From Dongia rigui (lineage in GTDB: Bacteria > Pseudomonadota > Alphaproteobacteria > Dongiales > Dongiaceae): a stretch of 64,000 nucleotides of DNA. The stretch covers positions 1-64,000 of the forward strand of contig NZ_JAXCLX010000001.1 of assembly GCF_034044635.1 (NCBI RefSeq). The letters run 5' to 3'. The notes under the pieces were generated by a model. The model was not told where the DNA came from. It did no database searches and saw only the letters and a program-made list of their open reading frames with translations. The translations under genes were made by a program, and so were the position numbers. Positions 24,093 to 56,786 of the stretch are shown here, piece by piece; positions within the stretch are counted from its first letter, which is position 1; the number at the start of each line of letters is the position of its first letter.

Positions 24093-24201
24093 CCCAGCTA
24101 TCCCTGAAAGCGCAAACACAGGGCGTCATAGAGACGGCAACGAGAGAGGAAAGGCAAGACTATTGACGTAATTTCAGCCCTGCAGTGCCGGCATGCCTGA
24201 G

Positions 24202-25125
24202 CTAACCGTCAACCACCGCCTGCAGATGCTTGCCGAAATCGGCCTGCCCCATCAGTTTCTTGCAGCGCTCGAAGCGGTTGACGGCATAGGCCCAGAAATC
24301 ATCCGCCGGGTTCTGGTTGACGTGCTGGATGATGCCCCAGAGCGTCCAGAGCAGGTCGCACATCGCCTTATAGAGCACCATGCGGCCGCGATCCGCCGGC
24401 AGCACCTTGCCGCCGAAATAAGCTTCCAACAGGATCTCGTCCTGTTCCGCACCGAACGCCGCCTCGACCGATACATCTCCCAGGTCCCACATGGGATCGT
24501 TGTTGCCGGCATATTCCCAGTCGATCACATGTACGACCTTCCCCGTGTCGAGGAAGTTTTCCGCCAGTGGATCGCAGTGACAGGGCACATTCGGCAACGA
24601 CCGCTTGCCAAGGGCCACGCGTACGCTCTCCGCCTCCCGCTTCACATCATGGTAGCCGTCGGGCAGAGGTGCTGCTTTCTTTTCCAGGATGCCGAGATAC
24701 TCATCGATCATCTGGAAGAGTTCGAAGCGGTTGAGGAAGGGCCGGCCGCTGTCATGCACCTTGCGCAAAGCCTCGGCCGAGCGCCGCACGGAGCCGAGAT
24801 CCTTGAAGCGCTCCACATTCAACGTGGCAGCGCCATCGATAAAGCCCGCCAGTTGCACGCCGTCGGTCTCATCAAAGAAGATCAGCGGCGCATTGACGCC
24901 AATATCCGAGGTGACGCGCGCTGCATGCGCCTCGTTCCTGCGCGAAATGTACTCGCTGGTCCCCTCACCTGGAATGCGCAGGACGAATTTACCCTTGGGC
25001 GTGCGCAGTAGATAGTTTCGGTTGGTAAGGCCACCCAGACGTTCGGCATTGACCTCGCTGACGCCAAGACCTGCCAAAAGCGGAATCCGCCGCATGGCGT
25101 CATGGATGATCTTCTCGTCTTGCAT
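24202..25125 (-). CDS. Choline/ethanolamine kinase-like phosphotransferase (copy 1)
   Basis: A 307-residue APH/choline-kinase-fold protein. The N-lobe has a GGLTNRNYLL nucleotide-loop segment and KFVLRIPG with the ATP-binding basic residue. The catalytic Brenner motif is HCDPLAENF (H183, D185, N190), with HND replaced by HCD. The choline-kinase motif IDWEYAGNNDPMWDLG contains the Mg-binding Asp (D202). It directly follows the DMGDH-like flavoprotein (11 bp) and so belongs to the betaine-transport unit. The role may be choline phosphorylation, but a different amino-alcohol substrate is equally possible. Compare copy 2 at 55911-56786. Confidence 0.88.
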   Translation of the reverse strand: MQDEKIIHDAMRRIPLLAGLGVSEVNAERLGGLTNRNYLLRTPKGKFVLRIPGEGTSEYISRRNEAHAARVTSDIGVNAPLIFFDETDGVQLAGFIDGAATLNVERFKDLGSVRRSAEALRKVHDSGRPFLNRFELFQMIDEYLGILEKKAAPLPDGYHDVKREAESVRVALGKRSLPNVPCHCDPLAENFLDTGKVVHVIDWEYAGNNDPMWDLGDVSVEAAFGAEQDEILLEAYFGGKVLPADRGRMVLYKAMCDLLWTLWGIIQHVNQNPADDFWAYAVNRFERCKKLMGQADFGKHLQAVVDG

Positions 25126-25136: not shown

Positions 25137-27557
25137 TTACGCCTTCAGCCGCTCGTTCTTGGGATCATAGAGCGGACCATCATGCCGCGTCGCCGGCGAT
25201 TGTTCCGTGAACGATTCAACCGTGAAGTTCTGCGCAATGGCGAGTTCAACGGGTAAATAGGCATAGGCGACCGATCTGCCCAACGTGTAGCTGAAATTGC
25301 CACTGGTCGTGACACCAACCACCTTGCCGTCATGTATCACCGCCTCGCCACCATAGAGCGGCAGCGGCTTCTCCAGGACGAAGGTACAGAGCTTCTGTTT
25401 AACACCAGCCTCTTTTTGCTTTGCCAAGACATCGCGGCCAATGAAGTTGCCTTTCTTCAGATTGACGCGGAAGCCAAGGCCGGCTTCATAGGGCGAATAG
25501 TCCGGCGTGATATCCGACGACCAATAGAGATAACCCTTTTCCATGCGTAGGGAATCGATCGCGCGATAGCCGACATCGGCGATGCCATGCTTCTCGCCCG
25601 CCTCGCGCAGAACGTCATAGACATGGGCGGCGTACTCGGTCGGCGCGTGCAACTCCCAGCCCAGTTCACCCACATAGCCAATGCGGATCGCGAGGACGGG
25701 CGCCGCGCCAACCGTGAGGCGACGGCAGGTCGAAAACGGGAAGGCGGCGTTGGAGATATCTTCTTCGGCCACGGCTGCCAGCACGTCGCGGGATTTCGGC
25801 CCGCAGATATTGATCACGGCGCGGGCCGAGGTCATATCGACTATCTGCACCGACCCATCGCGTGGCAGATGGCTTTCGATCCATTGCTTGTCATGCAGGC
25901 CAAAGGCACTGCCGGTGACGAAATAGAAGCGGTCCTCCGCGACACGCGAAAAAGTGAGATCGCATTCTATGCCGCCCTTCGGGTTGCACAGCTGGGTATA
26001 GACCGTGCTGCCCACCGGCTTGTTCATGTCGGACACGGCGAGATTCTGCAGCGCCGCCAGCGCGCCGGACCCGATGACCTCGTATTTCGCGAAAGATGTC
26101 TGGTCGATCAACGCTACGCCACCGCGCACCTTCTTATGCTCGGCACCGACATGGGCGAACCAATTGGTCTTGGCTCGGTCGAAGGCCGGCTCATCGATGG
26201 CTTTCACGCCAGCCGGGGCAAACCAGTTGGGCCGTTCCCAGCCACCGCGCGAGCCGAAGACGGCGCCGCGGCTTTTCAGCGTTTCATAGAGCGGTGAGCG
26301 GCGGATGCCGCGCATCGTCTCATGCTCGTCGCCCGGGCGATGCAGCTTGTAGTGATGGCCGTAAAGCTCCACCGCCCGCGGATACATGAAGTGGCGCGTG
26401 TTGTGGTGAAAATTGAAGCGCCGCACATCGAGCGGCCACAGGTTGAGGCTGGGCGACCCTTCCGCGATCCACTCCGCCATCATCCGGCCGGCGCCACCGC
26501 CGGCAGCGATCCCATAGAGGAAGCCGGCCGAGACGAAAAAGTTGTCGAGCTCCGGCGCCTTGCCCATCACGAAATCGGAATCCGCCGAATAGGGGATCGG
26601 GCCGTTGATCAATTCGCGCACGCCGACGGTGTTGATGATGGGTGTCCGCTTGCCACCGAGCTTGGCGAGCATTTCAAAGCGCTCGAAATTACCCGGCAGC
26701 AGTTCTTGTGCGAAATGCCGTGGAATGCCCCCGGGGGCAAAGGGCAGCGTATCCGGCTCGTAGCCACCGATCACCAGGCCGCGCACTTCCGGCTTGTAAT
26801 AGACCAGATGGTCCGGATCACGCATGGTCGGCATCTTCTTGGGCACATCCGGCAACGGATCGGTGATGAGATACTGATGCTCGACGGCAAAGCTGGGGAT
26901 GCGCACCCCGGCAAGGTCGCCCACTTCATGGCCCCACATGCCGGCGCAATTGACGACGATATCGCAGGTCCATTCGCCCTTGTCCGTCTTCACCACGCTG
27001 ACGCGCCGGTTCTCGACCGTCATGCCCGTGACGCGCTCGCCAATGATGATACGAGCACCCTTGTCCTTGGCACCCTTGGCCAATGCCTGGCAGACGCCGG
27101 CCGGGTCGATATAGCCGTCGGAGGGAATGTAGACCGCCGAGCGAACGTCCTCCGTGCTCATGATCGGGAACAGGTCCTGCGCCTCCTTGGGCGACAGTTC
27201 GTTCATTTCCAAGCCGAAGCTTTTCGCCATGGTCAGCGAGCGCTTGTTCTCCATCTCGCGCTCGGTCGAACAGGCAAGACGCAGGCTGCCATATTTCTTC
27301 CAGTCGATCGCCATGCCCGTCTCGGCTTCGAGCTTGTCATAGAGTTCGACCGAATGCCGCAGCATGCGCGTCACATTGCGCGACGAGCGCAGCTGCCCGA
27401 CCAGGCCGGCTGCATGCCACGTCGCGCCATGGGTGATCCCGCTCTTTTCCAGGATCACCACATCCGTCTTGCCCATGCGGGTCAGGTGGTAGGCGATCGA
27501 GCAACCGATGATGCCGGCACCGATGATCAGAATTTCCGCGTGTTGACGCCCGCTCAT
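25137..27557 (-). CDS. FAD-dependent dimethylglycine/sarcosine dehydrogenase-like protein with GcvT domain (copy 1)
   Basis: An 806-residue two-part enzyme. The N-terminal DAO-type FAD domain has the dinucleotide loop GAGIIG (13-18). It also has HAAGLVGQLR, whose His48 is the covalent-FAD position in DMGDH/sarcosine dehydrogenases. From about residue 430 a C-terminal GcvT-like folate-binding domain follows (GVALIDQTSFAKYEV; GYVGELGWELH; ADVGYRAIDSLRMEKGY). The expected reaction is oxidative N-demethylation with transfer of the methylene to tetrahydrofolate. It sits between the DeoR regulator and the kinase in the betaine-transport unit, supporting a methylated-amine substrate. Exact substrate (dimethylglycine, sarcosine or other) is unknown. 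Confidence 0.9.
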   Translation of the reverse strand: MSGRQHAEILIIGAGIIGCSIAYHLTRMGKTDVVILEKSGITHGATWHAAGLVGQLRSSRNVTRMLRHSVELYDKLEAETGMAIDWKKYGSLRLACSTEREMENKRSLTMAKSFGLEMNELSPKEAQDLFPIMSTEDVRSAVYIPSDGYIDPAGVCQALAKGAKDKGARIIIGERVTGMTVENRRVSVVKTDKGEWTCDIVVNCAGMWGHEVGDLAGVRIPSFAVEHQYLITDPLPDVPKKMPTMRDPDHLVYYKPEVRGLVIGGYEPDTLPFAPGGIPRHFAQELLPGNFERFEMLAKLGGKRTPIINTVGVRELINGPIPYSADSDFVMGKAPELDNFFVSAGFLYGIAAGGGAGRMMAEWIAEGSPSLNLWPLDVRRFNFHHNTRHFMYPRAVELYGHHYKLHRPGDEHETMRGIRRSPLYETLKSRGAVFGSRGGWERPNWFAPAGVKAIDEPAFDRAKTNWFAHVGAEHKKVRGGVALIDQTSFAKYEVIGSGALAALQNLAVSDMNKPVGSTVYTQLCNPKGGIECDLTFSRVAEDRFYFVTGSAFGLHDKQWIESHLPRDGSVQIVDMTSARAVINICGPKSRDVLAAVAEEDISNAAFPFSTCRRLTVGAAPVLAIRIGYVGELGWELHAPTEYAAHVYDVLREAGEKHGIADVGYRAIDSLRMEKGYLYWSSDITPDYSPYEAGLGFRVNLKKGNFIGRDVLAKQKEAGVKQKLCTFVLEKPLPLYGGEAVIHDGKVVGVTTSGNFSYTLGRSVAYAYLPVELAIAQNFTVESFTEQSPATRHDGPLYDPKNERLKA

Positions 27558-27600: not shown

Positions 27601-28401
27601 TCAGGCCGCCGGATCGACGACCAGGATTTCAACGTCGTTCCGCTCCAGCGCCTCGGCGAGCGGCCCGGTCGGCCGCTGGTCCGTCACCAGGAGGTCGACG
27701 GCATCGAAGCCAAGTGCCGCTACCAGGCACCGACGCCCGAATTTGCTGTGATCGGCGCCGACGATCATGCGCTCGGCATGGCCGACCAGTGAGCGCGAGA
27801 CCTCCGCCTCACAGAGATGGTCGTCCATGACGCCGAGACTGATATCGAGGCCGGAGGCGCTGATGATCGCCGTCTTCACCATGAATTGCTGCAGGAAGAG
27901 AATGGCGGCCGGGCCGAAGGCGGCGCTGTCATCGGCACGCAATTCGCCGCCGGCCAGATAGACCTTGTTCCCCTGCCCCGTGCTGAGATGCTGCGCGATC
28001 GACGCGGAATTCGTCACCACCGTCAGATTGCGCCGCCCCTTCAGGGCCTGCGCCACATATGTGTTGGTCGAGCCGGTGTCGAGAAAGACCGATTCCCCGT
28101 CGCTGATCTCATTGGCGATGGCCGCGGCGATCGCCTGTTTGGCGGCCATGTTGTCAAGCATGCGCCGCTGCAGCGGCTGATCTTCGCTGCGATCGCGCCA
28201 GCGCACATTGCCGTGGCTCTTCTCGACCAGACCCTTGGCCGACAGCAGGCGGAGGTCGCGCCGGATCGTCTCACCGGAGACATCCAGCGCCTCGGCAAGC
28301 TGCGTCACCGCCAGCAATTGGTCGCGCCGCAACACTTCCATGATGCGTGCCTGCCGGCTGTTGAGCCGGAGATCGGAGAGAACTTCGAGATCTTTTGCCA
28401 T
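27601..28401 (-). CDS. DeoR/GlpR-family transcriptional regulator
   Basis: A 266-residue repressor-type regulator. The N-terminal HTH_DeoR (LLAVTQLAEALDVSGETIRRDLRLL) is followed by the DeoRC sugar-phosphate-isomerase-like sensor domain (VFLDTGSTNTYVAQAL; ADDSAAFGPAAILFLQQF; VGADHSKFGRR). DeoRC domains bind phosphorylated metabolites. The start is the ATG at 28401, 13 bp after the permease gene, with GGGGCAGG upstream; a longer frame exists but overlaps the permease. Its position inside the transport/catabolic unit argues for local control. A phosphorylated effector would fit a pathway containing a kinase, which is an inference. Confidence 0.92.
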   Translation of the reverse strand: MAKDLEVLSDLRLNSRQARIMEVLRRDQLLAVTQLAEALDVSGETIRRDLRLLSAKGLVEKSHGNVRWRDRSEDQPLQRRMLDNMAAKQAIAAAIANEISDGESVFLDTGSTNTYVAQALKGRRNLTVVTNSASIAQHLSTGQGNKVYLAGGELRADDSAAFGPAAILFLQQFMVKTAIISASGLDISLGVMDDHLCEAEVSRSLVGHAERMIVGADHSKFGRRCLVAALGFDAVDLLVTDQRPTGPLAEALERNDVEILVVDPAA

Positions 28402-28414: not shown

Positions 28415-30403
28415 CTAATGTTGGGCGTTGATATCGAGAAGGCCGAGCCGGGCGCGGGCGCGCCTGGCCCCGGCGGCGGCGAGCCGATCGAGGACGATGC
28501 CGAGAAAAGCAACGCACAAGCCGGCGACAATCCCACGTCCCGGATCGGCTTTGGTTAGGGCGATATAGACTTCCTGCCCCAGGTCGCGCGTCCCCACCAG
28601 GGCGGTGATGACCAACATGCTGAGCGACAGCAGGATGACCTGATTGATACCCAGCATGATCTCGGGCAAAGCGAGCGGCATCTGCACACGCCAGAGAATC
28701 TGCCGCGGTGTCGAGCCCATTGCACGGGCCGCCTCGATCACTTGCGGGGAGACGTTGCGCAGGCCATGGGCGGTATAGCGGATGGCGGGCGTCACCGCGA
28801 AAAACACGATCGCGATCATGGCGGTCACATCGCCCACGCGGAACAGCATCACCACCGGAATCAGGTAGACGAAGGTCGGCAGTGTCTGCAGCGTGTCGAC
28901 GGCAATGGTGGCGACGCGGTTACCCCAGTCGCTGCGCGACGCCCAGGCACCGATCGGAATGCCGATCATTGCCGCGATGATCGCGGAAATGGCGCAAAGG
29001 TAGACCGAGATCATGGCCTTTTCCCACTGGCCGGCAACCAGGATGAAAGCAATGAGCACACCAACCAGAACGGCCAGCTTGCGACCGCCGAGCTGATAGC
29101 CGGCAAGAACCAGGCCAGCAAGGATGGCAATCCAAGGGGCGGCCAGGAGGCCCTGCTTCACCGGGTTCATAACGTTCAGCAACAGCCAGGTCCGGACAGC
29201 TTCGATAGAATCGAAGAAGTTGATGTTGATCCACTTGACGATCTCGTTGAGGGAATCACCCAATGTCAACACCAGCGCCTTGGGCACTTCCGAGAAGGCG
29301 GAAATGAACGTGCCGAGCACAGTCGTCACGAGCAGCCAGGCGACGCCGCCCGCCAAATATGGGTGGCGCGCCAGGAAGGTGCTGCCGGACGAAACTGGGC
29401 TGGCCTGCCGCTGCGCGGCTGCCTGGCTGATACGGTCGAGGCTTATGGCAATCGCGACGATCGCCATGCCGGCAACCGTACCACGACCGATATCGCCCTG
29501 CCGCAGCGCCAGCAGGACGTCGTAACCCAATCCACCTGCCCCGATCATCGAGGCGATGATGACCATGTTGAGTGTCATCATGATGACCTGGTTGACACCG
29601 ACCATCAGCAGCGACCGGGAACTGGGGATCATAATGCGCCACATCTTCTGGCGCGGCGAACATCCGGCCATGTTGCCGAAATCCATGACTTCTTCCGGCA
29701 CCGATCGCAAGGCCAACACCGTCGCCCGTACCATCGGCGGCACGGCAAAGATGACGGTGGCGACCAGCGCCGGGACCGGCCCCGACCCGAACAGCAGCAG
29801 GACCGGCACCAGATAGGCAAAGGACGGCATCGTCTGCATGAGGTCGAGCGATGGCTGCACCACCCAGACGGCCAGCCGTTCATGGCGAAACGCCAGGATG
29901 CCGAAGAGGAGACCCAGGACGACAGCGATGGGCACGCAGACAATGACCGAGGCCAGCGTCAGCATGGCACCCTTCCATTGCCCGAATAGGGCGATGTAGA
30001 TGAAGCACACGAAGACCGTGAGCGCCGTTCGCATGCCGCCATAGGCGTAGCCAAGGAGCGTCACGGCACCGATGATCCCCACCCAGGACAGGCGCGGCAC
30101 AATGACAGCATCATTGGGCGCCAGGATACCCTTGGCGAGAATAGCGATCATGCTATCGAGCGGCACGTCGAGAACCGCCGCCAGCCCACGCGTCAGGAAC
30201 TGGATGTTTGCCACCAGCCATTTCGCTGCAAGGCCGATCCATTTGGCAAAGTTGACCTCGAGCTTATCTGGATACTTGACCAGCGGGGCCAGACTGTCTT
30301 TCAAGAGCCACAGCGCGACGACGGCGATGAGGAAGCCGAGCCAGATCAGCGGCCAGGGCGTCCGCCGATCGTCTCCCTCAAATGCTGCCGTCTCGACACT
30401 CAT
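28415..30403 (-). CDS. Betaine/proline-type ABC transporter permease, two ProW domains fused in tandem
   Basis: A 662-residue membrane protein containing two complete BPD_transp_1 (ProW-like) halves. The first, about 60-330, has an EAA-type loop in FGNMAGCSPRQKMWRIMIP. The second, about 370-655, has ARAMGSTPRQILWRVQMP. Each half has its own hydrophobic amphipathic start (FAKWIGLAAKWLVANI; IVKWININFFDSI). Ordinary ProW/OpuAB is about 280-350 residues and homodimerises; here the dimer appears to be one chain with diverged halves. The start ATG (30403) overlaps the ATPase stop by 4 nt. It imports a quaternary or N-methylated amine together with the neighbouring ATPase and binding protein. Confidence 0.92.
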   Translation of the reverse strand: MSVETAAFEGDDRRTPWPLIWLGFLIAVVALWLLKDSLAPLVKYPDKLEVNFAKWIGLAAKWLVANIQFLTRGLAAVLDVPLDSMIAILAKGILAPNDAVIVPRLSWVGIIGAVTLLGYAYGGMRTALTVFVCFIYIALFGQWKGAMLTLASVIVCVPIAVVLGLLFGILAFRHERLAVWVVQPSLDLMQTMPSFAYLVPVLLLFGSGPVPALVATVIFAVPPMVRATVLALRSVPEEVMDFGNMAGCSPRQKMWRIMIPSSRSLLMVGVNQVIMMTLNMVIIASMIGAGGLGYDVLLALRQGDIGRGTVAGMAIVAIAISLDRISQAAAQRQASPVSSGSTFLARHPYLAGGVAWLLVTTVLGTFISAFSEVPKALVLTLGDSLNEIVKWININFFDSIEAVRTWLLLNVMNPVKQGLLAAPWIAILAGLVLAGYQLGGRKLAVLVGVLIAFILVAGQWEKAMISVYLCAISAIIAAMIGIPIGAWASRSDWGNRVATIAVDTLQTLPTFVYLIPVVMLFRVGDVTAMIAIVFFAVTPAIRYTAHGLRNVSPQVIEAARAMGSTPRQILWRVQMPLALPEIMLGINQVILLSLSMLVITALVGTRDLGQEVYIALTKADPGRGIVAGLCVAFLGIVLDRLAAAGARRARARLGLLDINAQH

Positions 30404-31488
30404 GGCTTCGATCCACGCGCGAGCAGAATCGCCAGGACCATTTCCGGGTCGATCTCGCCCACCACGGCGCCATCGACACGCACGGCGAACGGCTGACCGG
30501 CGCCGATGACCCTTGGCGCGATGTCGACGATCTTGTCGCGGGCGTTCACCTCGCCAGCGACCGCCACCCCACTCCATGGGCGCATGATGCGGCCGGCGCT
30601 CACGACCTTGGCGCGGTCGACGTCACCCGTGAATTCGGCGACGTAATCGGTCGCGGGATTGAGCACCAGGTCCTCAGGTGTGCCGAGCTGGACCACGGCA
30701 CCGTCTTTCATGATGGCGATACGATCGGCAAGGCGAATGGCCTCGTCGAAATCATGTGTCACGAAGACGATGGTCTTCTTGAGCACATTTTGCAGGCGCT
30801 GCAGCTCTGCCTGCATTTCCCGGCGGATGAGCGGATCGAGCGCGGAAAACGGTTCGTCAAGGAACCACAGTTCGGGATTGGCCGCCAGCGACCTGGCAAT
30901 GCCGACACGCTGTTGCTGGCCACCGGACAACTGGCGCGGGAAACTCAGTTCCTTGCCCTTGAGGCCGACAAGTTCCAGAACGTCGCGGGCGCGCTGCTGG
31001 CGCTCGGCCTTGCCGACCTTCTGCAGCGACAGCGGGAAGGCGACATTGTCGATGACGGTGAGGTGCGGCAGCAAGGCGAAATGCTGGAACACCATGCCCA
31101 TCTTGTGCCGGCGGATCTCGATCATCTGCGCGGGGCTGGCGTCGAGGAGGTTCTGATCCTCGAACATAACCACGCCGGCACTGGGCTCGATGAGGCGCGA
31201 CAGGCAGCGAAGCAAGGTGGATTTGCCGGAACCAGAGAGACCCATGAGGACGAAAATCTCGCCCGCGCGCACATCAAGCGTGACATCGCGGACGGCGGCC
31301 ATCTGTCCGCGGGCAGCGAGTTCGGCGGCACCGAGGTCGGCGAGCTGGGCGGCGTCGAACCTTCGCTCGGTATCGGCACCGAACAGCTTCCACACGTTGC
31401 GGCAGGAGAGCTTTACGCCGCCAAGCCGTGCTTCGTTCAAATCTTGCGCGACGCTGGGCGCATCCATTGGCGCGTCACCCTGCCCCAT
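30400..31488 (-). CDS. proV: Betaine/proline-type ABC transporter ATP-binding protein (ProV-like)
   Basis: A 362-residue ABC ATPase. Walker A GLSGSGKSTLLR, Q-loop GMVFQHFALLPH, signature LSGGQQQRVGIAR, Walker B LWFLDEPFSALDP and the H-loop FVTHDFDEA are intact. A C-terminal segment (from about 290) resembles a degenerate CBS half, as in ProV/OpuAA, where it senses ionic strength. It couples to the fused permease by a 4-nt stop/start overlap. The start is MGQGDAPMDAPS; a GAGG lies upstream. It is separated from the binding-protein gene by a strong hairpin. Confidence 0.93.
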   Translation of the reverse strand: MGQGDAPMDAPSVAQDLNEARLGGVKLSCRNVWKLFGADTERRFDAAQLADLGAAELAARGQMAAVRDVTLDVRAGEIFVLMGLSGSGKSTLLRCLSRLIEPSAGVVMFEDQNLLDASPAQMIEIRRHKMGMVFQHFALLPHLTVIDNVAFPLSLQKVGKAERQQRARDVLELVGLKGKELSFPRQLSGGQQQRVGIARSLAANPELWFLDEPFSALDPLIRREMQAELQRLQNVLKKTIVFVTHDFDEAIRLADRIAIMKDGAVVQLGTPEDLVLNPATDYVAEFTGDVDRAKVVSAGRIMRPWSGVAVAGEVNARDKIVDIAPRVIGAGQPFAVRVDGAVVGEIDPEMVLAILLARGSKP

Positions 31489-31574: not shown

Positions 31575-32537
31575 CTACTCAGCCCACTGCTTGATCTTCT
31601 CCTGGTTGGCAGCAATCCAGGCATCCGCCACGTCGTCGAGCGACTTCTTGTCGAGGTCGACCTCGCCAATCAGCGTGTTCATCTCATCATCGGTGAATTT
31701 CATGTTCTTGGCGATCTTATGCGCCACCGGCCACTTGTCGGCGAAACCCTTCCAAGAATACTTGTAGATCTCGCCATGCGGCTTGCCGCAGTCATAGGCC
31801 TTGTCGGGGTTCGAACCCCAGGCCGGGTCGTTGTAGCATTCGGGCGTCCATTCCGGGAACTGCACCCACTCGCCCTTATACTTCGCCGGTGCCCAATGCG
31901 GGGTGTAGATCCACAGAATGATCGGCGCCTTGCGCTGATAGGCGGATTCAAGCTCGGCGAACATCGCGGCGTCGGTGCCGGCATGGACCACTTCGAAGGG
32001 CAGGTCGAGCGCTTCGACACGCTCGTCGTCAAAGCCGCCCCAGGTCACCGGGCCACCGAGATAGCGCCCCTTCGGCGCGGTTTCCGGCGTCGAGAAAGCT
32101 TCGGCGCAGCCTTTCAGCGCCTCCCAATTGGGAAGGCCCGGGCACTTCTCCTTCATGTATTCCGGAAACCACCATTCTTCCTTGGCCTTGGGACCGATGG
32201 GACCGAGGTTTTCGGTCTCGCCACTGGCATCAGCGTCTGCCATCGCTTCGCGCGCGGTCGTGTCCCAATACTCCATGCCGATGGTGAGATCGCCGGTGCG
32301 CAGACCCGTTTGGATGCTGGCAAGGTAATCCGACGTCACCAGTTCGGTGTTGTAGCCGTATGATTTCAGGATCTTCGACAGGATGGTCGCGTTCAGATTG
32401 ACGCTGGTCCAGTCAAAGAGGGCGATCTTGATCGGATCGGTGCTTTCCGGTTCCGCCGCGGCGGGCATCGAAAAGCCGGCGCCGAGGGCCAAAGCCATGG
32501 CGGCACCCATCGCCTTGCGGCGGAAGGTCATCGTCAT
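31575..32537 (-). CDS. proX: Betaine-type ABC transporter substrate-binding protein (ProX/OpuAC family)
   Basis: A 320-residue periplasmic protein. A Sec signal peptide (basic FRRK, hydrophobic MGAAMALALGAGF, cleavage near AAAE) precedes an OpuAC domain (IALFDWTSVNLNATI; WTPECYNDPAWGSNPDKAYDC). Aromatic residues (several Trp/Tyr, including FDWT, MEYWDT and WWFPEY) can form the cation-pi box that holds quaternary ammonium groups. Three Cys occur in the second half. GGGAG at suitable spacing selects the ATG at 32537; Met30 is an alternative. It is the first gene of the transporter/DeoR/dehydrogenase/kinase unit. The ligand is inferred to be glycine betaine, proline betaine or a similar compound. 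Confidence 0.92.
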   Translation of the reverse strand: MTMTFRRKAMGAAMALALGAGFSMPAAAEPESTDPIKIALFDWTSVNLNATILSKILKSYGYNTELVTSDYLASIQTGLRTGDLTIGMEYWDTTAREAMADADASGETENLGPIGPKAKEEWWFPEYMKEKCPGLPNWEALKGCAEAFSTPETAPKGRYLGGPVTWGGFDDERVEALDLPFEVVHAGTDAAMFAELESAYQRKAPIILWIYTPHWAPAKYKGEWVQFPEWTPECYNDPAWGSNPDKAYDCGKPHGEIYKYSWKGFADKWPVAHKIAKNMKFTDDEMNTLIGEVDLDKKSLDDVADAWIAANQEKIKQWAE

Positions 32538-32685
32538 TCCACGTCTCCCGATTTGCCTCAATCGGCTCCGTTCGTCGGAGCGCTGTGTATTAGTATGAAA
32601 ATCTAGCCACAGCCCCAAATGGTTCGCAAGTCAATTGTGCGAAATTCGTGGAAACGATGTTGATTTGACCGCACGGTCCAAACGG

Positions 32686-46873: not shown

Positions 46874-47923
46874 ATGCCCCTGCCCTTCTCGCCCCCCATC
46901 CGCGCCAGGATTTTGTGCTTGGTGCTGGGGGCATTGGGGGGTGGCGTCTTCTACCTGCTGCACTTGCCGCTGCCCTGGATGATGGGGGCAATGACCCTTA
47001 CCACCCTGGCGGCCGTCTCAGGTGTCCGGATTGCGATGATGCCGCGCGTCCGCATGGTCTTCGTCGCCATCCTCGGCATCATGCTGGGCAGTGCCTTTTC
47101 CCCCCAGATGCTGGATCATCTGCAGAACTGGGCCATCAGCCTCCTGTGGCTGGCACTTTATGTCGTCGTCACGACCTATCTCGTGCGCCTCTATTACATC
47201 CATTTTGCCGGCTACGATGCCGTCACAGCTTATTTTGCCGCCGCCCCCGGCGGCCTGTCGGAGATGATCCTTGCCGGCAGTGCCTTTGGCGGCGATGAGG
47301 CACGCATTTCCTTGGCGCATGGCGCCCGAATTCTTGTCGCGGTGTTCGTGCTCTCCTTCGGTTATCGCTGGCTTGGCGGCTATACGCCAACTGGTGCCAG
47401 CGCCGCTGCCGCCAGCCTGCCCCTCGACATCGTCGATCTGCTCTGGCTGGGCGGCGCAGGCGTGCTCGGATTCTTTGGCGCCAGGAAATTGCGCATGCCG
47501 GCCTATGCCCTGGTCGGTCCCATGATCGTCAGCGCGCTCCTGCATGTCGTTGGCGTGACGGCTTCGCGGCCGCCGGCCGAACTGGTCGCCATAGCGCAGA
47601 TCGTCGTCGGTTCCATGATCGGCGCGCGGTTCACGGGCCTGCCCTTGCGCCTGGTCCTGCGCGGCATTCTATTGGCTGTCGGGGCGACCGCCGTTCTGCT
47701 GATCGTTGCGGCCGGGTTCGGCTTTGCGGTCGATGCCACGGCCGGCGTCCCCTTTGGCTCGGCCCTGCTCGCCTTCTCGCCCGGCGGGCTGGCGGAAATG
47801 AGCCTGATCGCCCTCGCCCTCGGCGTCGATGCTGCCTATGTCTCCAGCCACCATGTGGTCCGCATCTTCATGATCGTGGTCGCGGCACCGCTGGTCTTTC
47901 GCCTATTGCGCCACAAGGGTTAG
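46874..47923 (+). CDS. AbrB-family membrane protein (ammonia-monooxygenase-type AbrB duplication)
   Basis: A 349-residue integral membrane protein with about ten helices in two similar halves: LHLPLPWMMGAMTLT with FAAAPGGLSEM in the first, and LRMPAYALVGPMIVSAL with AFSPGGLAEMSLIALALG in the second. This is the AbrB duplication family (unrelated to the AbrB DNA-binding fold), a predicted transporter or membrane regulator. It is coupled to the OYE-type gene. Its last 21 bp overlap the 3' end of the convergent acyltransferase gene. The substrate is unknown. Confidence 0.88.
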   Translation: MPLPFSPPIRARILCLVLGALGGGVFYLLHLPLPWMMGAMTLTTLAAVSGVRIAMMPRVRMVFVAILGIMLGSAFSPQMLDHLQNWAISLLWLALYVVVTTYLVRLYYIHFAGYDAVTAYFAAAPGGLSEMILAGSAFGGDEARISLAHGARILVAVFVLSFGYRWLGGYTPTGASAAAASLPLDIVDLLWLGGAGVLGFFGARKLRMPAYALVGPMIVSALLHVVGVTASRPPAELVAIAQIVVGSMIGARFTGLPLRLVLRGILLAVGATAVLLIVAAGFGFAVDATAGVPFGSALLAFSPGGLAEMSLIALALGVDAAYVSSHHVVRIFMIVVAAPLVFRLLRHKG

Positions 47924-50900
47924 CGCCATCGACTTCAATCGCTTGAGATCGGTCTTGCCGGTGCCCAGCACCGGCAGTTCATCCAGGCGATGCAGATCGG
48001 CAACCTTCGGAACCCAGATCTTTGGCAGGCCGGCATCATTGAGCCCCTGCCACACCAACTCCGCCCCCATGCTTTCATCGGCCAGGTAAAAGCCCACCAA
48101 CCGCTCGCCCTTGGCCGCATCCGGCACGGCAGTCACATTGGCGCCATTGACCCCGGGGATGCGCAGCATGGCCTCCTCGACCTTGAGATGCGGCACCATC
48201 TCGCCGCCGATCTTCGAGAAGCGCGACAATCGGTCCGTGATGCGGATGAAGCCGTCCTCGTCCAACACGGCAATATCGCCGGTGACATACCAGCCGTTCC
48301 TGATGACCTCGTCGGTCTTGGCCGGGTTGTTGAGATAACCCACCATGCGGCCGGGCCCTTTGAGCAGCAGCAGGCCTTCCTCGCCTTCGTTGCGATCTTC
48401 GAACGTGTCGGGATCGACGATCCGGGCGGCGACGCCCGGCACGGGATGCCCGACGGTACCCGGCTTGTGACCCGTCTGGTTTTCGCCCACCCCCATCACA
48501 TTGGGGACGTTGACCGAGACGACCGGCCCCATTTCCGTGGCGCCATAGCCTTCAAGCATGTCGATGCCGAACTTGTCCTTGAACGCTGCGGCAAGGTCCG
48601 GCCGCAGCCGCTCGGCGCCGACGACGACATGGCGCAGGCTCTTGAAATCCTCGGCCGGAATACTGCGCAGGTAGGACTGGCAGAAGGTCGGGGTGGAGAT
48701 CAGGATGGTGGCCCGGTATTTCTTCACCAGGCCTCCTATGGTCTTCGCATCAAGCGGGTTGGCGTGATAGACGGCGCCATTGCCGATCACCAGCGGCAGG
48801 CACAGCGTGCCGGTAAAGCCGAAGGAATGGAAGAACGGTAGCACGCCCACGAACTTGTCGGCCTTGGTCAGCCACAGGATCTGCGCGATCGCCTCCAGGT
48901 TCGAGATGACGTTGTGCTGCGACAACATCACGCCCTTGGGTTCGCCGGTCGAGCCGGAACTGAACATGACCGTGCAAAGATCGTCGATCGATTGCCCCTT
49001 CGGCACGGCGCGGCGCAGCAACAGGGTGGTCGGCGTCAACATGCTGGCGATGTACATGAGCAGTTGCGCCAGCTTGCTCTGCTTGGCCAGCAGCTCCTCG
49101 ACAAAGACCATGTCCGGTCGTTCGGCCAGCTTGACCTTCGACAGGAAAGCGCGCGCCGTCACGATGGTCTTGATGCCGCATTGCTGGATCGCCGATTCCA
49201 TGGCGTCTGCACCAATCGTGAAGTTGAGATTGACCGGCACCTTGCCCGCCAGCATCAACCCCATATTGACCAGGGCGGCGGCCACAGAACCCGGCAGCAG
49301 AACGCCGACCATTTTATCGGCACCCCGTTCGCGCGTGAACCAGCGCGCCAGAAGCCGCGATCCGGCCAGCGCCTGGCCGAAATTGAGTTCCCGTCCCAGT
49401 GAATCCGCCATGGCCATGCGGAACCAGTACCTTTTGGCGGTCCGAATGAAACGCTTTGCAACGAGGTCATCGGGTTGACGGCGATGACGGAAGGCGTCCC
49501 CCCCCATCTCCAGCAGGCTCTGGCGCACATCACGCGCCTTGGCACTGGAAGGCAGCGGCTTTCCGAAGGTGATCGTGACCGGATAAAATAGACGGCGCGG
49601 CCATTTCCAGAAGAACTTGCCGTCCTTGAAGCTGAAGATCGAGCCCCATACCTGGTCCAGATGAACCGGGATGATCGGCACGTCGATGCCGTCGATGATG
49701 CGCTCGAATCCGCGTTTGAACGGCAGCATGTTGCCGGTGCGGCTGATGGAACCTTCGGCGAAAATGCAGACGACATGGCCGTCTTGGAGCTCGGCACGCG
49801 CTCGTTTGATGGGCTCCAACACCTTGCCGCCGCCGGTCGGGATTGCCCGCATCGTCTTCAAGAAGGCGCCAAGGCCCGGAATGCCGAAAAACGGCGCATA
49901 GACCATGAAGCGCACGAACCGCTGCACGCAGGACCCGACCAGCAATCCGTCGACGAAGGAAAGATGATTGCAGACCAGCAATGCCGGCCCATTGAGAGGC
50001 ACATTCTGGGCGCCGACGATGCGGATGCGATAAATGGAATGCGTCAGCAGCCACAAGACGAAGCGAATGAAGAAATCAGGCAGCAGATAGAAGATGTAGC
50101 CGGTGATCAGGAAGCTCAGCAGGCCGCCCACCATGATTACCTGGTCCGGCTGCAGGCCAAGGAAGCTGCCGAGCAGAAGATTGCTGCCGAAGGCGATCGC
50201 GATCGCCAGGAAGTTGAGAAAATTGTTGGCACCGATGATGCGGCCACGTGCTTCCAGCACCGATTTCTGCTGCAACATCGCATTGAGCGGCACGGTATAG
50301 AAACCGGCAAAGAAACCAAGCAGCCCGAGACACACGACTGCCGACCAGGTACCGTCCACCGTCACCAGCAGCATCGCCATGATACCCATGCCGACAGAGC
50401 CGATCGGCACCAAGCCGAACTCGATCTTGTAGCCGGAAAGGCGGCCGGCAACCATGCTGCCGACGCCGATGCCAATTGCGACCGAGGCCCATAAGCCCCC
50501 GGTTTCGCTCTCGGTGAGACCCAGTTCATGGGTGCCATAGAGTGGGATCGAGATCTGCACCAGGGCGGCTAAAAACCAGAACCACGAATTGCCGAGCACG
50601 GTGAGCATCAGGCGGCGATCCGCCATCAATTCACGCATGCCCGTGCTGATACCGGCCAGCGGGTTGAAACTGAAGCGCCGCGGTGCCGTCGGCACCGGCG
50701 TGCGGCCGATCCCAAAGGCCGCCAGGGTACCCACAATGGCGATGACGAGCGGGACGATACCCATGACCAACGGATCGTGGCTGACGGTCTGATAGAGGGC
50801 ACCACCCGCCCAGGTGCCGATGATGATGGCAAGGAACGTGCTCATCTCGATCAACGCATTGCCGCGCGAGAGGTCGGATTGCGGCAGCAATTCCGGCAGG

Positions 50901-51304
50901 CAGCCATATTTCGCCGGGCTAAAGAAGGTAGAGTGCGTGGCGATGAGAAACAGCACCCCCAGCATCATGTTGAGGTCCTGCGCCTGGAACGCCCAGAGCC
51001 CCAGCAGCATGGCGGCGATTTCGACGGATTTGGTGACGATCAACACAGATCGCTTTGAGAAGATGTCCGCCAACTGGCCGGCATGCCCGGAGAAGGCCAG
51101 AAAAGGCAGGACGAACAGCACGCCGATGATGGTCACATAGGTGTTGGCCATCCACCCGTCGGGCTGGCGCGTGGCAAGATCGATCGCGAAGAACGTGACG
51201 ACATAGCGATAGAGATTGTCGTTCAATGCGCCGAGGAACTGCGTTACCAGCATCCAGCCAAATCCCGGATCGGTAATCAAGCGCATGTAGGAGCGGTCGT
51301 TCAT
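47903..51304 (-). CDS. aas: Trifunctional LplT-Aas fusion: MFS transporter + PlsC acyltransferase + acyl-ACP synthetase
   Basis: About 1133 residues in three parts. The N-terminal ~400 residues are an MFS lysophospholipid flippase-like domain (VTQFLGALNDNLYRYVV, MLQQKSVLEARGRIIGANN). A PlsC acyltransferase domain follows, with the NHLSFVD HX4D box and FAEGSISRTG. The C-terminal AMP-binding acyl-ACP synthetase (MFSSGSTGEPKGVMLS, GYGATEMGP, YVTGDIAVLDEDGF, and a final Lys in TGKTDLKRLK) completes it. The protein imports lysophospholipids, re-acylates them and activates the fatty acid. E. coli keeps LplT and Aas separate. The start is ATG 51304 with GGGGAAGG upstream. Confidence 0.93.
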   Translation of the reverse strand: MNDRSYMRLITDPGFGWMLVTQFLGALNDNLYRYVVTFFAIDLATRQPDGWMANTYVTIIGVLFVLPFLAFSGHAGQLADIFSKRSVLIVTKSVEIAAMLLGLWAFQAQDLNMMLGVLFLIATHSTFFSPAKYGCLPELLPQSDLSRGNALIEMSTFLAIIIGTWAGGALYQTVSHDPLVMGIVPLVIAIVGTLAAFGIGRTPVPTAPRRFSFNPLAGISTGMRELMADRRLMLTVLGNSWFWFLAALVQISIPLYGTHELGLTESETGGLWASVAIGIGVGSMVAGRLSGYKIEFGLVPIGSVGMGIMAMLLVTVDGTWSAVVCLGLLGFFAGFYTVPLNAMLQQKSVLEARGRIIGANNFLNFLAIAIAFGSNLLLGSFLGLQPDQVIMVGGLLSFLITGYIFYLLPDFFIRFVLWLLTHSIYRIRIVGAQNVPLNGPALLVCNHLSFVDGLLVGSCVQRFVRFMVYAPFFGIPGLGAFLKTMRAIPTGGGKVLEPIKRARAELQDGHVVCIFAEGSISRTGNMLPFKRGFERIIDGIDVPIIPVHLDQVWGSIFSFKDGKFFWKWPRRLFYPVTITFGKPLPSSAKARDVRQSLLEMGGDAFRHRRQPDDLVAKRFIRTAKRYWFRMAMADSLGRELNFGQALAGSRLLARWFTRERGADKMVGVLLPGSVAAALVNMGLMLAGKVPVNLNFTIGADAMESAIQQCGIKTIVTARAFLSKVKLAERPDMVFVEELLAKQSKLAQLLMYIASMLTPTTLLLRRAVPKGQSIDDLCTVMFSSGSTGEPKGVMLSQHNVISNLEAIAQILWLTKADKFVGVLPFFHSFGFTGTLCLPLVIGNGAVYHANPLDAKTIGGLVKKYRATILISTPTFCQSYLRSIPAEDFKSLRHVVVGAERLRPDLAAAFKDKFGIDMLEGYGATEMGPVVSVNVPNVMGVGENQTGHKPGTVGHPVPGVAARIVDPDTFEDRNEGEEGLLLLKGPGRMVGYLNNPAKTDEVIRNGWYVTGDIAVLDEDGFIRITDRLSRFSKIGGEMVPHLKVEEAMLRIPGVNGANVTAVPDAAKGERLVGFYLADESMGAELVWQGLNDAGLPKIWVPKVADLHRLDELPVLGTGKTDLKRLKSMALTLVAQ

Positions 51305-51419
51305 GTCTGAGCCTTCCCCAATTTCTCCTACAAAATCGGGGCTTGGGCCGGCCAAAGTCAAGTTATGGAACGCGAGTCCCGTTCACATTCGACCGCTGGC
51401 AGGCTAGACTTCCCGCATC

Positions 51420-53440: not shown

Positions 53441-55900
53441 TCAGGCCTTCACTCGATCCATCTTCGGGTCATAAAGCGGCTGCAGGCTGACCTTGGCGGG
53501 ATAGCGCTGGCAGGCGATCTCCAGTTCATAGGTGCCGCTCAGCACGTCCTCGGCACTGACGCCATTCTGCGGATCGCGAACATAGCCGATGCCGATATTG
53601 GTACCGAGCGTATAGCCATAACCACCCGAAGCCAGCCAGCCGACCTGCTTCCCGTTGCGGAAGATCGTCTCGCGTCCCAGGAGGACGACGCTCTGGTCGT
53701 CGACCGTGAAGCAGGCCAGCAGCTTGGGCAGCTTCTTCTGCGACAAGGCGGTCAAGGCCTCGCGCCCCAGGAAGGGCACGTTCTTCTTCAGCTTCACCGC
53801 CCAGCCCATGCCGGCTTCGAGCGGCGAGTGGTCCGGCGTGATGTCGGAGGACCAGGCACGATAGAACTTCTCCAGGCGCAGGCTTTCGATGGCCCGGTAG
53901 CCGGCATTGGCGATGCCGTGCTGGGCACCGGCCGCCCACAGCGCCTCATAGACTGCGACCATGGCTTCGACCGGAATGTGCAGTTCCCAGCCCAACTCGC
54001 CGACATAGGTCACCCGCAGGGCGCGTACGATGGCGCCCGCAATCGAAAACTCCTGCGCGGTGCCGAACGGAAACGCATTGTTCGACACATCCGCCGGGGT
54101 TACCGCGGCCAGCACATCGCGTGCCTTCGGCCCCATCAGAGAGAGCACGCCATAGGCCGAGGTGACGTCAATGAGGCGCGCATCGAGCCCCGCCGGTATG
54201 TGCGACGAGATCCAGTGGAAATCGTGCGTGGCATAACCCGTGCCGGTGACGATGTAATAGGCATCCTCCGCCACGCGCGTGACCGTGAGATCGCATTCGA
54301 TGCCGCCGCGCTGGTTGAGCATCTGGGTATAGATGATGCTGCCCGGCTTCTTCGCCAAGTCATTGCTGGCGATCCAGGTGAGTGCCGCCTCGGCATCGCG
54401 CCCCACCAGCATGAACTTGGCAAACGAGGTCTGGTCGATGAGCACCACGCGCTCGCGCGCCGCCTTGTGCTCGCTGCCGACATGGTCGAACCAGTTCTGG
54501 CGCTCATAGGAATAAGCATCCTTCGGCTCGACACCCTTGGGCGCAAACCAGTTGGGCCGTTCCCAACCGAGTTTCCAGCCAAAGACCGCGCCCTGTTCCT
54601 TGAGCTTGGCATAGAGTGGTGAAACACGCACCGGCCGCACGCTTTCCAGTTCCTCATGCGGCCAGGCCATCGAATAGTGATGGGCATAGGCTTCGAGTGT
54701 GCGGCTGAGGACCCAGTTCTTGTCGCGATGCACCTGACCAAAGCGGCGAATGTCGACCGGCCACAGATCCATCGGCGGCTCGCCACCAGCGACCCATTCG
54801 GCAAGCGCCCGGCCGGCACCGCCACCCGAGGCAATGCCGAAGGCGTTGAAGCCGGCACCGACGAAGAAGTTCCGCACCTCCGGCGCTTCACCCAGGATGA
54901 AGTTTCCATCCGGCGTGAAGCTCTCCGGCCCGTTGATCATCTGCTTGACGCCGGCCTTCTCCAGCGCCGGCACGCGCGCCAGGGCCTGCTCCATCAACTG
55001 GCCGAAATGGTCCCAGTCGTTTTCAAGCAGCTGGAAAGCAAAATTTCCCGGCAACGCATAGCGATCCTTGCCCGGCAGCCAGGGAATCGGGTTGTGCTCG
55101 TAACCACCCATCACTAGCCCGCCGACTTCCTCCTTGAAATAGATGAGCCGGTCGGGGTCGCGCAGGGTCGGCAGGTTCTTCGGCACACCGGCCATCGCTT
55201 CGGTCACGATGTACTGATGCTGCACCGATTGCAGCGGCACGTTGACGCCGGCCAGCGCACCGATCTCGCGCGCCCATTGGCCGCCGCAATTGACGATGAC
55301 ATCTGCCGCAATGCGCCCCTTGTCGGTTTGGACCGCAACCGCCCTCCCCTTCACCACCTCAATCCCGGTGACGGCCGTTTCCTCGATGATCTTCACACCG
55401 CCCAGGCGTGCACCCTTTGCCAGCGACTGCGCGATATCGGCCGGATTGGCCTGGCCATCGGTCGGCAGAAAGGCAGCGCCCACCAGATCGCCGATGTCCA
55501 TGATCGGCCACAGATCCTGCGCTTCCTTTGGGCTGAGCAGATGCATCTCGAGGCCGAAGGAATGCGCCGTCGTCGCCTGGCGCTTGATTTCGGTCATGCG
55601 TGCCTGGTTGCAGGCAAGGCGCAGCCCGCCATTCATCTTCCAGCCGGTGGCAAGGCCCGTTTCGGCTTCGAGCTTGTTGTAAAGCTCGACGGAGTATTTG
55701 AGGAGCTGCGTGATATTGGCTGACGTGCGCAACTGGCCGACGAGGCCGGCAGCATGCCAGGTCGAACCGCTGGTCAGCTTGTGGCGCTCGATCAGCACCA
55801 CATCCTTCCAGCCGAGCTTGGCCAGGTGATAGGCCGTCGAGCAGCCGATGATGCCGCCGCCGATGATGACGGCGCGTGCCGAGGTCGGAAAATCACTCAT
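53441..55900 (-). CDS. FAD-dependent dimethylglycine/sarcosine dehydrogenase-like protein with GcvT domain (copy 2)
   Basis: A 819-residue paralogue of the copy at 25137-27557. The FAD loop IIGGGIIGCSTAYHL and SGSTWHAAGLVGQLRTS (His49 at the covalent-FAD position) are present. The C-terminal GcvT/folate domain has VVLIDQTSFAKFMLVG, VTYVGELGWELH and ANAGYRAIESLRLEKFYRAW. The ATG at 55900 has GAGGAG 7 nt upstream; the longer frame is spurious. It follows the second choline-kinase-like gene by 10 bp. Same chemistry expected as copy 1: N-demethylation with methylene transfer to tetrahydrofolate. Confidence 0.92.
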   Translation of the reverse strand: MSDFPTSARAVIIGGGIIGCSTAYHLAKLGWKDVVLIERHKLTSGSTWHAAGLVGQLRTSANITQLLKYSVELYNKLEAETGLATGWKMNGGLRLACNQARMTEIKRQATTAHSFGLEMHLLSPKEAQDLWPIMDIGDLVGAAFLPTDGQANPADIAQSLAKGARLGGVKIIEETAVTGIEVVKGRAVAVQTDKGRIAADVIVNCGGQWAREIGALAGVNVPLQSVQHQYIVTEAMAGVPKNLPTLRDPDRLIYFKEEVGGLVMGGYEHNPIPWLPGKDRYALPGNFAFQLLENDWDHFGQLMEQALARVPALEKAGVKQMINGPESFTPDGNFILGEAPEVRNFFVGAGFNAFGIASGGGAGRALAEWVAGGEPPMDLWPVDIRRFGQVHRDKNWVLSRTLEAYAHHYSMAWPHEELESVRPVRVSPLYAKLKEQGAVFGWKLGWERPNWFAPKGVEPKDAYSYERQNWFDHVGSEHKAARERVVLIDQTSFAKFMLVGRDAEAALTWIASNDLAKKPGSIIYTQMLNQRGGIECDLTVTRVAEDAYYIVTGTGYATHDFHWISSHIPAGLDARLIDVTSAYGVLSLMGPKARDVLAAVTPADVSNNAFPFGTAQEFSIAGAIVRALRVTYVGELGWELHIPVEAMVAVYEALWAAGAQHGIANAGYRAIESLRLEKFYRAWSSDITPDHSPLEAGMGWAVKLKKNVPFLGREALTALSQKKLPKLLACFTVDDQSVVLLGRETIFRNGKQVGWLASGGYGYTLGTNIGIGYVRDPQNGVSAEDVLSGTYELEIACQRYPAKVSLQPLYDPKMDRVKA

Positions 55901-55910
55901 AATCTGCTCC

Positions 55911-56786
55911 TCACATATTCCGGAAGTCGCCGAGCGCGCGCTCAAAGCGCGCCAGATTCTCGGCGGTATAGGCGGCATAGTCGAAATCCAGCGTCGAGTG
56001 GATTTCGGAAATCATGCTCCACATCGTCTCGCGCAGCAGCGAGGCGCATTTCATGGCGTGGTAGCGGCGCAACAGAGCGGCATCGGCCTTGCGTTCGAAA
56101 TAGGCCTCCAGCAGACGGGTCTCATCGGCCACCGGCACTTCGTTGTTCGAGCACAGATTGGCAAGATCGAAGAGCGGTGAGTTGAAGCCGGCATAGTCCC
56201 AGTCGATCAGCCACAGCCGATCGCCGCCATCGATGAAATTGCTCGGCAGCAAATCGTTATGCCCATAAACGATTTCGACCGGGCCGACAGCCTTCTCCAG
56301 TTCCGCAGCGATATCGAGCAGGCGCGGCAAGGTTGGGAGGTGTCGGCTATTGCCGGCCTTCAGCGAATGGCCGTAATCGCGCAACACATGAAAGACCCAG
56401 AAGATCAGAGCCGGTCCGGCAACATGCAGCGGCATTTCGCGGTGACACTTGCGCACCAAGGGCAGGATGCGCGCCAGCATCGCCGGCTGCCTTACATCCT
56501 CGGCAGCGAGGGTCTTGCCATCGACAAACTCGAAGACCAATGCACCCGGTGCCGCATGCACGACCTGGGGCGACAGGCCGCATTCGGCAGCCGCACGGCT
56601 TGCCGCCAGTTCATTGAAGCGCATGACGCCATGAACGGGGATATCGTCGCCGATGCGGACGAAGTATCGTCGACCGGCATCCTCGACCCGGAAATTGGCG
56701 TTGGTGATACCGCCCTTGATGATCTCAGGCTGGATCTTCCCGGACCAACAGGTCAGGGCCTCCACCCGCGCCATCGCCTCCCGCAT
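55911..56786 (-). CDS. Choline/ethanolamine kinase-like phosphotransferase (copy 2)
   Basis: A 291-residue paralogue of the protein at 24202-25125. GGITNANFRVE is the nucleotide loop and RYFVRIG carries the ATP-lysine-equivalent position (Arg). The catalytic Brenner motif is the canonical HNDLLPSNF (H176, D178, N183), and the choline-kinase LIDWDYAGFNSPLFDLANLC carries D195. The C-terminal part is helical (RETMWSMISEIHSTLDFDY, as in LicA-type kinases). It lies immediately upstream of the second DMGDH-like gene. The substrate is inferred only from family. Confidence 0.88.
   Translation of the reverse strand: MREAMARVEALTCWSGKIQPEIIKGGITNANFRVEDAGRRYFVRIGDDIPVHGVMRFNELAASRAAAECGLSPQVVHAAPGALVFEFVDGKTLAAEDVRQPAMLARILPLVRKCHREMPLHVAGPALIFWVFHVLRDYGHSLKAGNSRHLPTLPRLLDIAAELEKAVGPVEIVYGHNDLLPSNFIDGGDRLWLIDWDYAGFNSPLFDLANLCSNNEVPVADETRLLEAYFERKADAALLRRYHAMKCASLLRETMWSMISEIHSTLDFDYAAYTAENLARFERALGDFRNM

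Follow-up and report, generated by a model that had tools for sequence, protein, structure and literature searches.

Two kinase-flavoprotein gene pairs of Dongia rigui as probable halves of one conserved unit, with a candidate role in the catabolism of N-methylated ethanolamines

The first 64,000 nucleotides of contig NZ_JAXCLX010000001.1 of the alphaproteobacterium Dongia rigui (assembly GCF_034044635.1, forward strand; this whole stretch is hereafter the window) carry two adjacent gene pairs, each joining a choline/ethanolamine-kinase-like protein (K1, K2) to a flavoprotein of the dimethylglycine dehydrogenase (DMGDH)-GcvT type (D1, D2). We found this association to be strongly conserved, and it is virtually certain that the kinases and the D proteins are functionally coupled. 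The two pairs are most simply understood as two halves, lying apart in the window, of a single K2-D2-D1-K1 unit. On balance, we favor a role in the catabolism of N-methylated ethanolamines, wherein the kinases would phosphorylate the amines and the D proteins would demethylate the resulting phosphate esters.

The initial annotation had described the two pairs as adjacent and opposite in order, and this is borne out: D1 leads K1 (27557-24202) across a gap of 11 bp, and K2 leads D2 (56786-53441) across a gap of 10 bp, with all four genes on the minus strand:

24202..25125, minus strand: K1, choline/ethanolamine-kinase-like protein of 307 aa (PF01633, 79.4 bits, cut-off 29; APH also above its cut-off)
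25137..27557, minus strand: D1, DMGDH-GcvT-type flavoprotein of 806 aa, leading the D1-K1 pair (PF01266, PF16350, PF01571, PF08669)
55911..56786, minus strand: K2, choline/ethanolamine-kinase-like protein of 291 aa, leading the K2-D2 pair (PF01633, 84.3 bits; APH also above its cut-off)
53441..55900, minus strand: D2, DMGDH-GcvT-type flavoprotein of 819 aa (PF01266, PF16350, PF01571, PF08669)

The start of D2 was taken as the ATG at 55900, which has a GAGGAG motif ahead of it; the longest frame begins at 55978, within K2. D1 and D2 are 51% identical and are reciprocal best matches within their own genome, and K1 and K2 share 28-29% identity. The genome codes for 11 APH-type kinases and seven proteins matching D1 over both domains, of which two of each are paired.

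Conservation of the pairing and of the gene order

Within the order to which D. rigui belongs, a K1 orthologue (at least 59% identity) is present in 16 of 17 genomes, with D1 adjoining it in all 16; the seventeenth (G016) has only a 38% match to K1, with no D gene alongside. K2 orthologues (at least 63%) are found in 16 genomes of the order, and D2 adjoins them in 12, the remaining four all belonging to one genus (g3). No D gene was detected within 1.5 kb on either side of 13 other K1-like kinase loci of the order (L056-L068) or of eight other APH-kinase loci of the D. rigui genome (L001-L008), some of these flanks being clipped by contig ends. Comparison of coordinates on plasmids placed K2 directly upstream of D2 in 19/19 records with a D2 of at least 60% identity; these are not 19 independent events, as several come from close strains. 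Further, K2 occurs in 10 of 142 genomes sampled evenly from the class (including the D. rigui genome and one congener), with D2 adjoining in nine of them, and every D2 at 63% identity or more (9/9) has its K2. One additional D2 match of 59%, at a contig end (G142), is 73% identical to a kinase-free relative from Sinorhizobium and has a DeoR-like frame upstream; by its sequence it is assigned to the kinase-free relatives discussed below.

We then compared the best 80 K1 loci drawn from 84,980 species genomes, the locus counts resting on tblastn. In 44 of these, K1 and a D gene share a strand and are no more than 300 bp apart, and 25 more have a D gene within 6 kb. Across 20 loci, the protein distances of K1, K2, D1 and D2 co-vary (r 0.65-0.87, with r = 0.87 for K2-D2; shared organism history is included in these values). 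Thus, the functional coupling proposed in the initial annotation is well supported by the enrichment of the pairs in the order, plasmid and class samples as well as by the co-varying distances, and the neighborhood mining and trees yielded neither unrelated partners nor a lack of enrichment.

Gene order is strict as well. Among the best 80 K1 loci, K2 precedes D2 on 40 occasions and D1 precedes K1 on 41, with no instance of the reverse of either; other successions are few (K2 then D1, two; D2 then K1, three; K1 then D2, one). The complete series K2-D2-D1-K1 was recovered in 17 of the 80; no gap exceeds 130 bp in 16 of these, and one locus (L087) has 3.0 kb ahead of K1. It is accompanied by ProX and ProV in 13 loci, and a DeoR homologue occurs at 33 of the 80. 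An annotated plasmid of Rhizobium rosettiformans (L152) presents it too: a DeoR gene and genes for a binding protein, ATPase and permease of a betaine-type ABC transporter, followed by K2, D2, D1 and K1. As this order exists in such loci, the kinase-first and dehydrogenase-first pairs correspond to its left and right halves. The initial annotation had read the reversed order as a recurrence of the pair; the pairs are not independent recurrences, two halves being the simplest account. An ancestral unit may have split, or two pairs may have joined. The unit ranges over soil and rhizobial bacteria, Gammaproteobacteria, metagenome-assembled genomes (MAGs) of Myxococcota and Actinomycetota, and a streamlined alphaproteobacterial genome of 1.4 Mb.

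In the kinase tree, K1 (36 rows) and K2 (31 rows) each fall on one side of a branch, with support of 93 and 94, respectively; in the tree of the D proteins, D1 (27 rows) and D2 (25 rows) do so with support of 100, and a kinase-free D from Aminobacter was later placed inside the D1 group. A sister relation of K1 and K2 was considered, but the kinase tree, built quickly and with long branches, is weak at its deep forks. A recent duplication of the whole pair was ruled out, given that K1 and K2 are only 28% identical and that each has its own series of orthologues; in this, the rejection of segmental duplication by the initial annotation was right.

Features of the kinases, the flavoproteins and their kinase-free relatives

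The best match of K1 in the PDB is 3dxq from Mesorhizobium loti (E 3.8e-101), itself a K1 orthologue, for which the excerpted source states that biochemical information has not been elucidated (PMC4364537). The same excerpts describe how LicA holds choline through four aromatic residues and a glutamate, namely Tyr197, Glu213, Trp251, Trp254 and Tyr268 (PMC4364537). The HxDxxxxN motif and the second catalytic aspartate are present in 96/96 K1 and 63/63 K2 sequences, and the five LicA cage positions read Y, E, W, W, Y in 96/96 K1. This five-residue cage is not preserved elsewhere among the kinases of the order and is therefore not merely common inheritance; invariant in K1 and absent as a set from the others, it makes phosphorylation of a choline-like amine by K1 very likely. 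K2 retains Y, W and Y of the cage (Y280 in 62/63), with asparagine replacing Glu213 (62/63) and glutamate replacing Trp251 (63/63). Failing at two of five positions, K2 was not filed as a choline kinase, and its sequence makes it very likely the kinase of a related but different amine. The fold family and catalytic motif of LicA-type choline kinases are common to K1 and K2, whereas the entire cage is found in K1 alone and K2 lacks two of its residues.

Two other kinase identities were rejected: the scores for the two proteins were 157.6 and 158.9 bits against the GntI kinase model (NF041256; curated cut-off 357) and 61.4 and 68.2 bits against the thiamine kinase model (TIGR02721; curated cut-off 299.45). 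A third K1-like kinase of the D. rigui genome (L070, 10250-11137), 31-33% identical to K1, lies near ABC transporter (ATP-binding cassette) genes that look thiamine-type by eye, and is possibly a thiamine kinase. A second two-kinase setting was seen on pRi1724 (L157, 4943-9623), with genes for a DeoR regulator, an M20-type hydrolase, two tandem choline-kinase-like proteins and a HisN-like phosphatase; two further loci (L178, L179) resemble it, such tandem genes occurring on rhizobial and other plasmids.

D1 and D2 both unite the DAO, FAO_M, GCV_T and GCV_T_C domains of Pfam in a single chain, and human dimethylglycine dehydrogenase (5l46) is the best PDB match of each. Alignments show the WHAAG motif in both, whose histidine we take to be the residue carrying flavin adenine dinucleotide (FAD). 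It is highly probable that D1 and D2 are folate-linked N-demethylases. They share the full domain order and motifs of dimethylglycine dehydrogenase/oxidase and sarcosine dehydrogenase (5l46, 4p9s, 1pj5), and differ from these in being coupled to a kinase gene and in forming two clades of their own. A GQLR loop after the FAD motif was considered as a phosphate signature and dropped: it is found in one D protein away from any kinase and presumably also in sarcosine dehydrogenases, and hence proves nothing.

The nearest relatives of D2 (52-56% identity) lack K2. At six of nine loci examined, these kinase-free relatives adjoin aminoethylphosphonate genes, the six being those of Sinorhizobium, Ensifer, Phyllobacterium, Aminobacter SS-2016, Shinella and G017, in the last of which the D gene stands directly behind pbfA (671.7 bits, cut-off 525); the genes were not found beside the relatives in Aminobacter niigataensis, G032 and G129. 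At L183, L184, L185, L186, L187 and L224, most of the DMGDH-GcvT proteins by aminoethylphosphonate genes have a DeoR gene of their own, the D gene of L224 lying beside pbfA; these are likely GcvT-type demethylases for N-methylated aminoethylphosphonates. On an A. niigataensis plasmid (L182, 1-8469), genes for a GbcA-like Rieske oxygenase, a reductase, a D1-clade D, a DeoR regulator and a second D, from the clade linked to aminoethylphosphonate, stand in a row, and the set looks like a full quaternary-amine demethylation system. The D. rigui genome itself has a kinase-free set (L226, 7256-14094; about 2386256-2393094 of C1) comprising an MttB-type methyltransferase gene followed by two DMGDH-GcvT paralogues, which perhaps serves glycine betaine. 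We infer a rule from these settings: where the amine bears a carboxylate or phosphonate, the D protein would need no kinase, and a kinase would accompany it when the amine is an alcohol.

A place for the unit itself in an aminoethylphosphonate pathway found no support, with a PhnW query matching at one of 85 kinase-linked loci (7.3 kb off) and PbfA giving only two weak matches (27-28%). The class III aminotransferase that L106 carries next to K1 is only 28% identical to PbfA.

Proposed function and its alternatives

The minus strand also carries, upstream of D1, genes for a DeoR-type regulator and a betaine-type ABC transporter:

27601..28401, minus strand: DeoR/GlpR-type regulator (PF00455 and PF08220; the ATG at 28401 was chosen, the frame extending to 28536)
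28415..30403, minus strand: betaine-type ABC transporter permease, with both permease halves in a single frame (putative start at 30403)
30400..31488, minus strand: betaine-type ABC ATP-binding protein, ProV (homologue, at 64%, of the betaine/proline/choline ABC ATPase annotated in L152)
31575..32618, minus strand: ABC substrate-binding protein, ProX (provisional frame start, TTG)

The permease is named from its reading frame and from its position, which matches that of the annotated ABC permease subunit in L152 and L154. The best PDB match of ProX is the glycine betaine/proline-type binding protein 4xz6 (E 7.4e-72), and its score against the choline ABC binding-protein subfamily, 64.5 bits, is far under the cut-off of 379.

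The families, the conserved unit with its order, the cage residues and the neighbors were computed; the substrates, the sequence of steps, the division between the two arms and the regulator's ligand are deduced from them. An amino alcohol would be taken up by the betaine-type ABC transporter (in one record, by EutH), and the kinase would add phosphate to its hydroxyl. The phosphate would thereby furnish a neutral amino alcohol with an acidic handle, in place of the carboxylate used by enzymes of the dimethylglycine/sarcosine dehydrogenase type. The FAD domain of the D protein would then oxidize an N-methyl group, with the GcvT domain handing the one-carbon unit to tetrahydrofolate and the electrons leaving via electron-transfer flavoprotein. 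K1-D1, whose kinase has the full choline-type cage, would act on dimethylethanolamine, the dimethyl amine; K2-D2, where the cage is altered, would act on the monomethyl amine and yield phosphoethanolamine, which a HisN-like phosphatase may convert to ethanolamine. A phosphorylated intermediate would be the signal to which the DeoR/GlpR regulator responds. Among the parts of this scheme, the D proteins probably act on a phosphorylated amine; that the amines are methylated ethanolamines has an even chance or slightly better.

Several neighbors agree with one another in pointing toward such a substrate, without proving it. In three kindred MAGs (L076, L078, L079), a homologue of phosphoethanolamine N-methyltransferase stands directly behind K1 (E 6.5e-51 to 5wp4). 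In Nitratireductor OM-1, EutH follows K2-D2 (663 against a cut-off of 575). Salipiger abyssi presents in series a HisN-like phosphatase gene, DeoR and ABC genes, K2, D2, etfBA, folD and purU, followed by genes for an N-formylglutamate amidohydrolase, a glutamine-synthetase-like protein and an aldehyde dehydrogenase. In the 1.4-Mb genome (G046), Etf genes adjoin K2-D2 and a choline dehydrogenase gene is nearby. Shinella HZN7 and Roseateles XES5 each have a formaldehyde-type repressor after K2-D2. An IMPase/HisN-like gene is found within 3 kb at four of the 85 kinase-linked loci (L083, L102, L144, L154) and also at L172 and L173. The two EutH regions examined on Paracoccus and Sphingobium plasmids held no kinase-D pair and were set aside. 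At 29 of the same 85 loci (e.g., L113, 9238-10008), the opposite strand carries, next to K1, a gene for a class I methyltransferase, which we take to be METTL27-like and which in many of them occupies the place expected for D1.

Certain observations weigh against this proposal. D1 and D2 keep general DMGDH motifs, and nothing in the alignments proves that they have a site for phosphate. The aminoethylphosphonate-linked D proteins form two lineages inside a mixed sister group of D2, whose other members are without that link, and a D1-clade D of A. niigataensis has no nearby kinase. The telling neighbors are rare: in the 85 loci, the phosphoethanolamine N-methyltransferase query gave one weak match besides three strong ones, these three being in the kindred MAGs; EutH comes from a single record; FrmR was matched at 1/85 and IMPase at 4/85; and EutH, EtfA, EtfB, FolD and PurU had no match in the 85. 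EutB is absent from the D. rigui genome (no PF06751 match). Nor is the partnership strict. Eleven of the best 80 K1 loci have no D gene within 6 kb, some contigs ending nearby; at L093, K1 is accompanied only by ABC genes; and G050 carries K2 without D2. Two loci (L077, L090) read K2-D1-K1, three of the four g3 genomes have D2 behind K1 instead (D1-K1-D2), and many loci of Mesorhizobium and Hoeflea lack D1 and have a methyltransferase gene between D2 and K1. These last three arrangements fit a strict dimethyl/monomethyl split poorly, and a strict two-arm model does not explain the loci with K1 alone, K2 without D2, K2-D1-K1 or the methyltransferase.

The best placed alternative, though an unlikely one, takes D1 and D2 for ordinary dehydrogenases of dimethylglycine and sarcosine that handle betaine-derived amines, with the kinases off the main flow and producing, for example, a phosphocholine signal that lifts DeoR repression. 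The shared PDB match to human dimethylglycine dehydrogenase and the betaine-type transporter would suit it, as would the DeoR homologues at 33 of the best 80 K1 loci, since DeoR-type regulators often sense phosphorylated compounds. However, D. rigui already has its kinase-free set of an MttB-type gene and two D paralogues, dimethylglycine and sarcosine offer no hydroxyl for phosphorylation, and the overlap or near contact of the kinase and D genes, along with the K2-D2 tie in all 19 plasmid records, fits a joint flux better than a signal. Somewhat less probable still is that the mechanism is as proposed and the substrate a different hydroxylated N-methyl amine, such as an amino diol or an amino acid with N-methyl groups. 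The few neighbors behind the substrate's identity and the two altered positions of the K2 cage leave room for this, whereas the choline-kinase cage in 96/96 K1 has no evident room for a carboxylate, and both EutH and the phosphoethanolamine-methyltransferase homologue indicate ethanolamine.

The methyltransferases by K1 (the phosphoethanolamine N-methyltransferase homologue at three loci, the class I type at 29/85) and the nucleoside triphosphate (NTP)-transferase gene downstream of K1 in the window could also evoke membrane-lipid turnover, with head groups being remodeled or recycled by phosphorylation, methylation and demethylation rather than used as food. We consider this improbable: the dedicated high-affinity-type ABC transporter and the etf, folD and purU neighbors have a catabolic flavor, and the NTP-transferase stands outside the wider unit. 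As for chance neighborhood, or a common gene family that is passively carried along, DMGDH-GcvT proteins are indeed numerous, with seven in D. rigui alone, but the pairing in fixed order across phyla and the unpaired control kinases without a D gene refute it by the counts and make it exceedingly improbable.

For the proposed phosphorylation and demethylation of amino alcohols, the closest precedent is that of Eubacterium limosum, where, according to the excerpted account, the choline kinase MthK forms phosphocholine and the cobalamin enzyme MthB demethylates it to dimethylaminoethanol phosphate (PMC12155760). Its authors suggest that the kinase converts an alcohol into an acidic amine, and report such gene neighbors in Firmicutes and delta-proteobacteria (PMC12155760, same excerpts). 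As in the MthK/MthB/MthC/MthA system so described, a choline kinase gene stands beside a demethylase gene, and phosphorylation is here proposed to precede methyl transfer to tetrahydrofolate. Unlike MthB, a cobalamin-dependent member of the MttB superfamily that acts on quaternary phosphocholine in anaerobes, the D proteins are of the flavin/GcvT type and would be expected to act on tertiary or secondary amines; no MttB homologue was found in the 85 kinase-linked loci with the L226 MttB-type protein as query. The excerpts on PbfB, PbfC and PbfD describe FAD enzymes oxidizing N-methyl-aminoethylphosphonate, which share only PF01266 and are ~20-31% identical to known enzymes (PMC10590968). On that description, FAD-dependent amine oxidation is common to them and D1/D2, and the phosphonate group by which they recognize the substrate parallels the proposed phosphate; D1 and D2 differ in carrying a GcvT half and in a phosphate that would be added by a kinase.

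The initial annotation knew of no pathway accounting for the combination. This stands for the flavoprotein version: we found no paper on a kinase plus DMGDH-GcvT unit in the open-access literature, most subscription journals lying outside the search. It does not stand for the logic, as phosphorylation followed by demethylation has its close precedent in the excerpted account of MthK/MthB (PMC12155760). We thus advance, at somewhat less than even odds, an undescribed aerobic pathway of two kinases and two folate-linked flavoproteins leading stepwise to phosphoethanolamine, as an independent flavin counterpart of MthK/MthB. If true, a widespread operon whose present annotation is phosphotransferase plus FAD-dependent oxidoreductase would gain a function, and the solved but unexplained structure 3dxq a substrate. 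It would also mean that phosphorylating amino alcohols for an acid-recognizing demethylase arose with two unrelated demethylases, and that bacteria could have a route to methylated ethanolamines, such as lipid head groups, as a source of nitrogen and one-carbon units.

Other genes of the window

Behind K1, the window (20282-24119) carries genes for a diaminopimelate-decarboxylase-like protein, an EgtC-like amidotransferase (208.4 bits, cut-off 218.65) and the NTP-transferase. A link of these genes to the unit was considered and rejected: the decarboxylase lies behind K1 in the window, L071 and L072 (Dongia mobilis), and the NTP-transferase recurs in L072, with neither labeled at the other K1 loci compared. 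Near K2-D2 (47903-51361) is a frame of 1152 aa that appears by eye to fuse a lysophospholipid transporter, an acyltransferase and an AMP-ligase.

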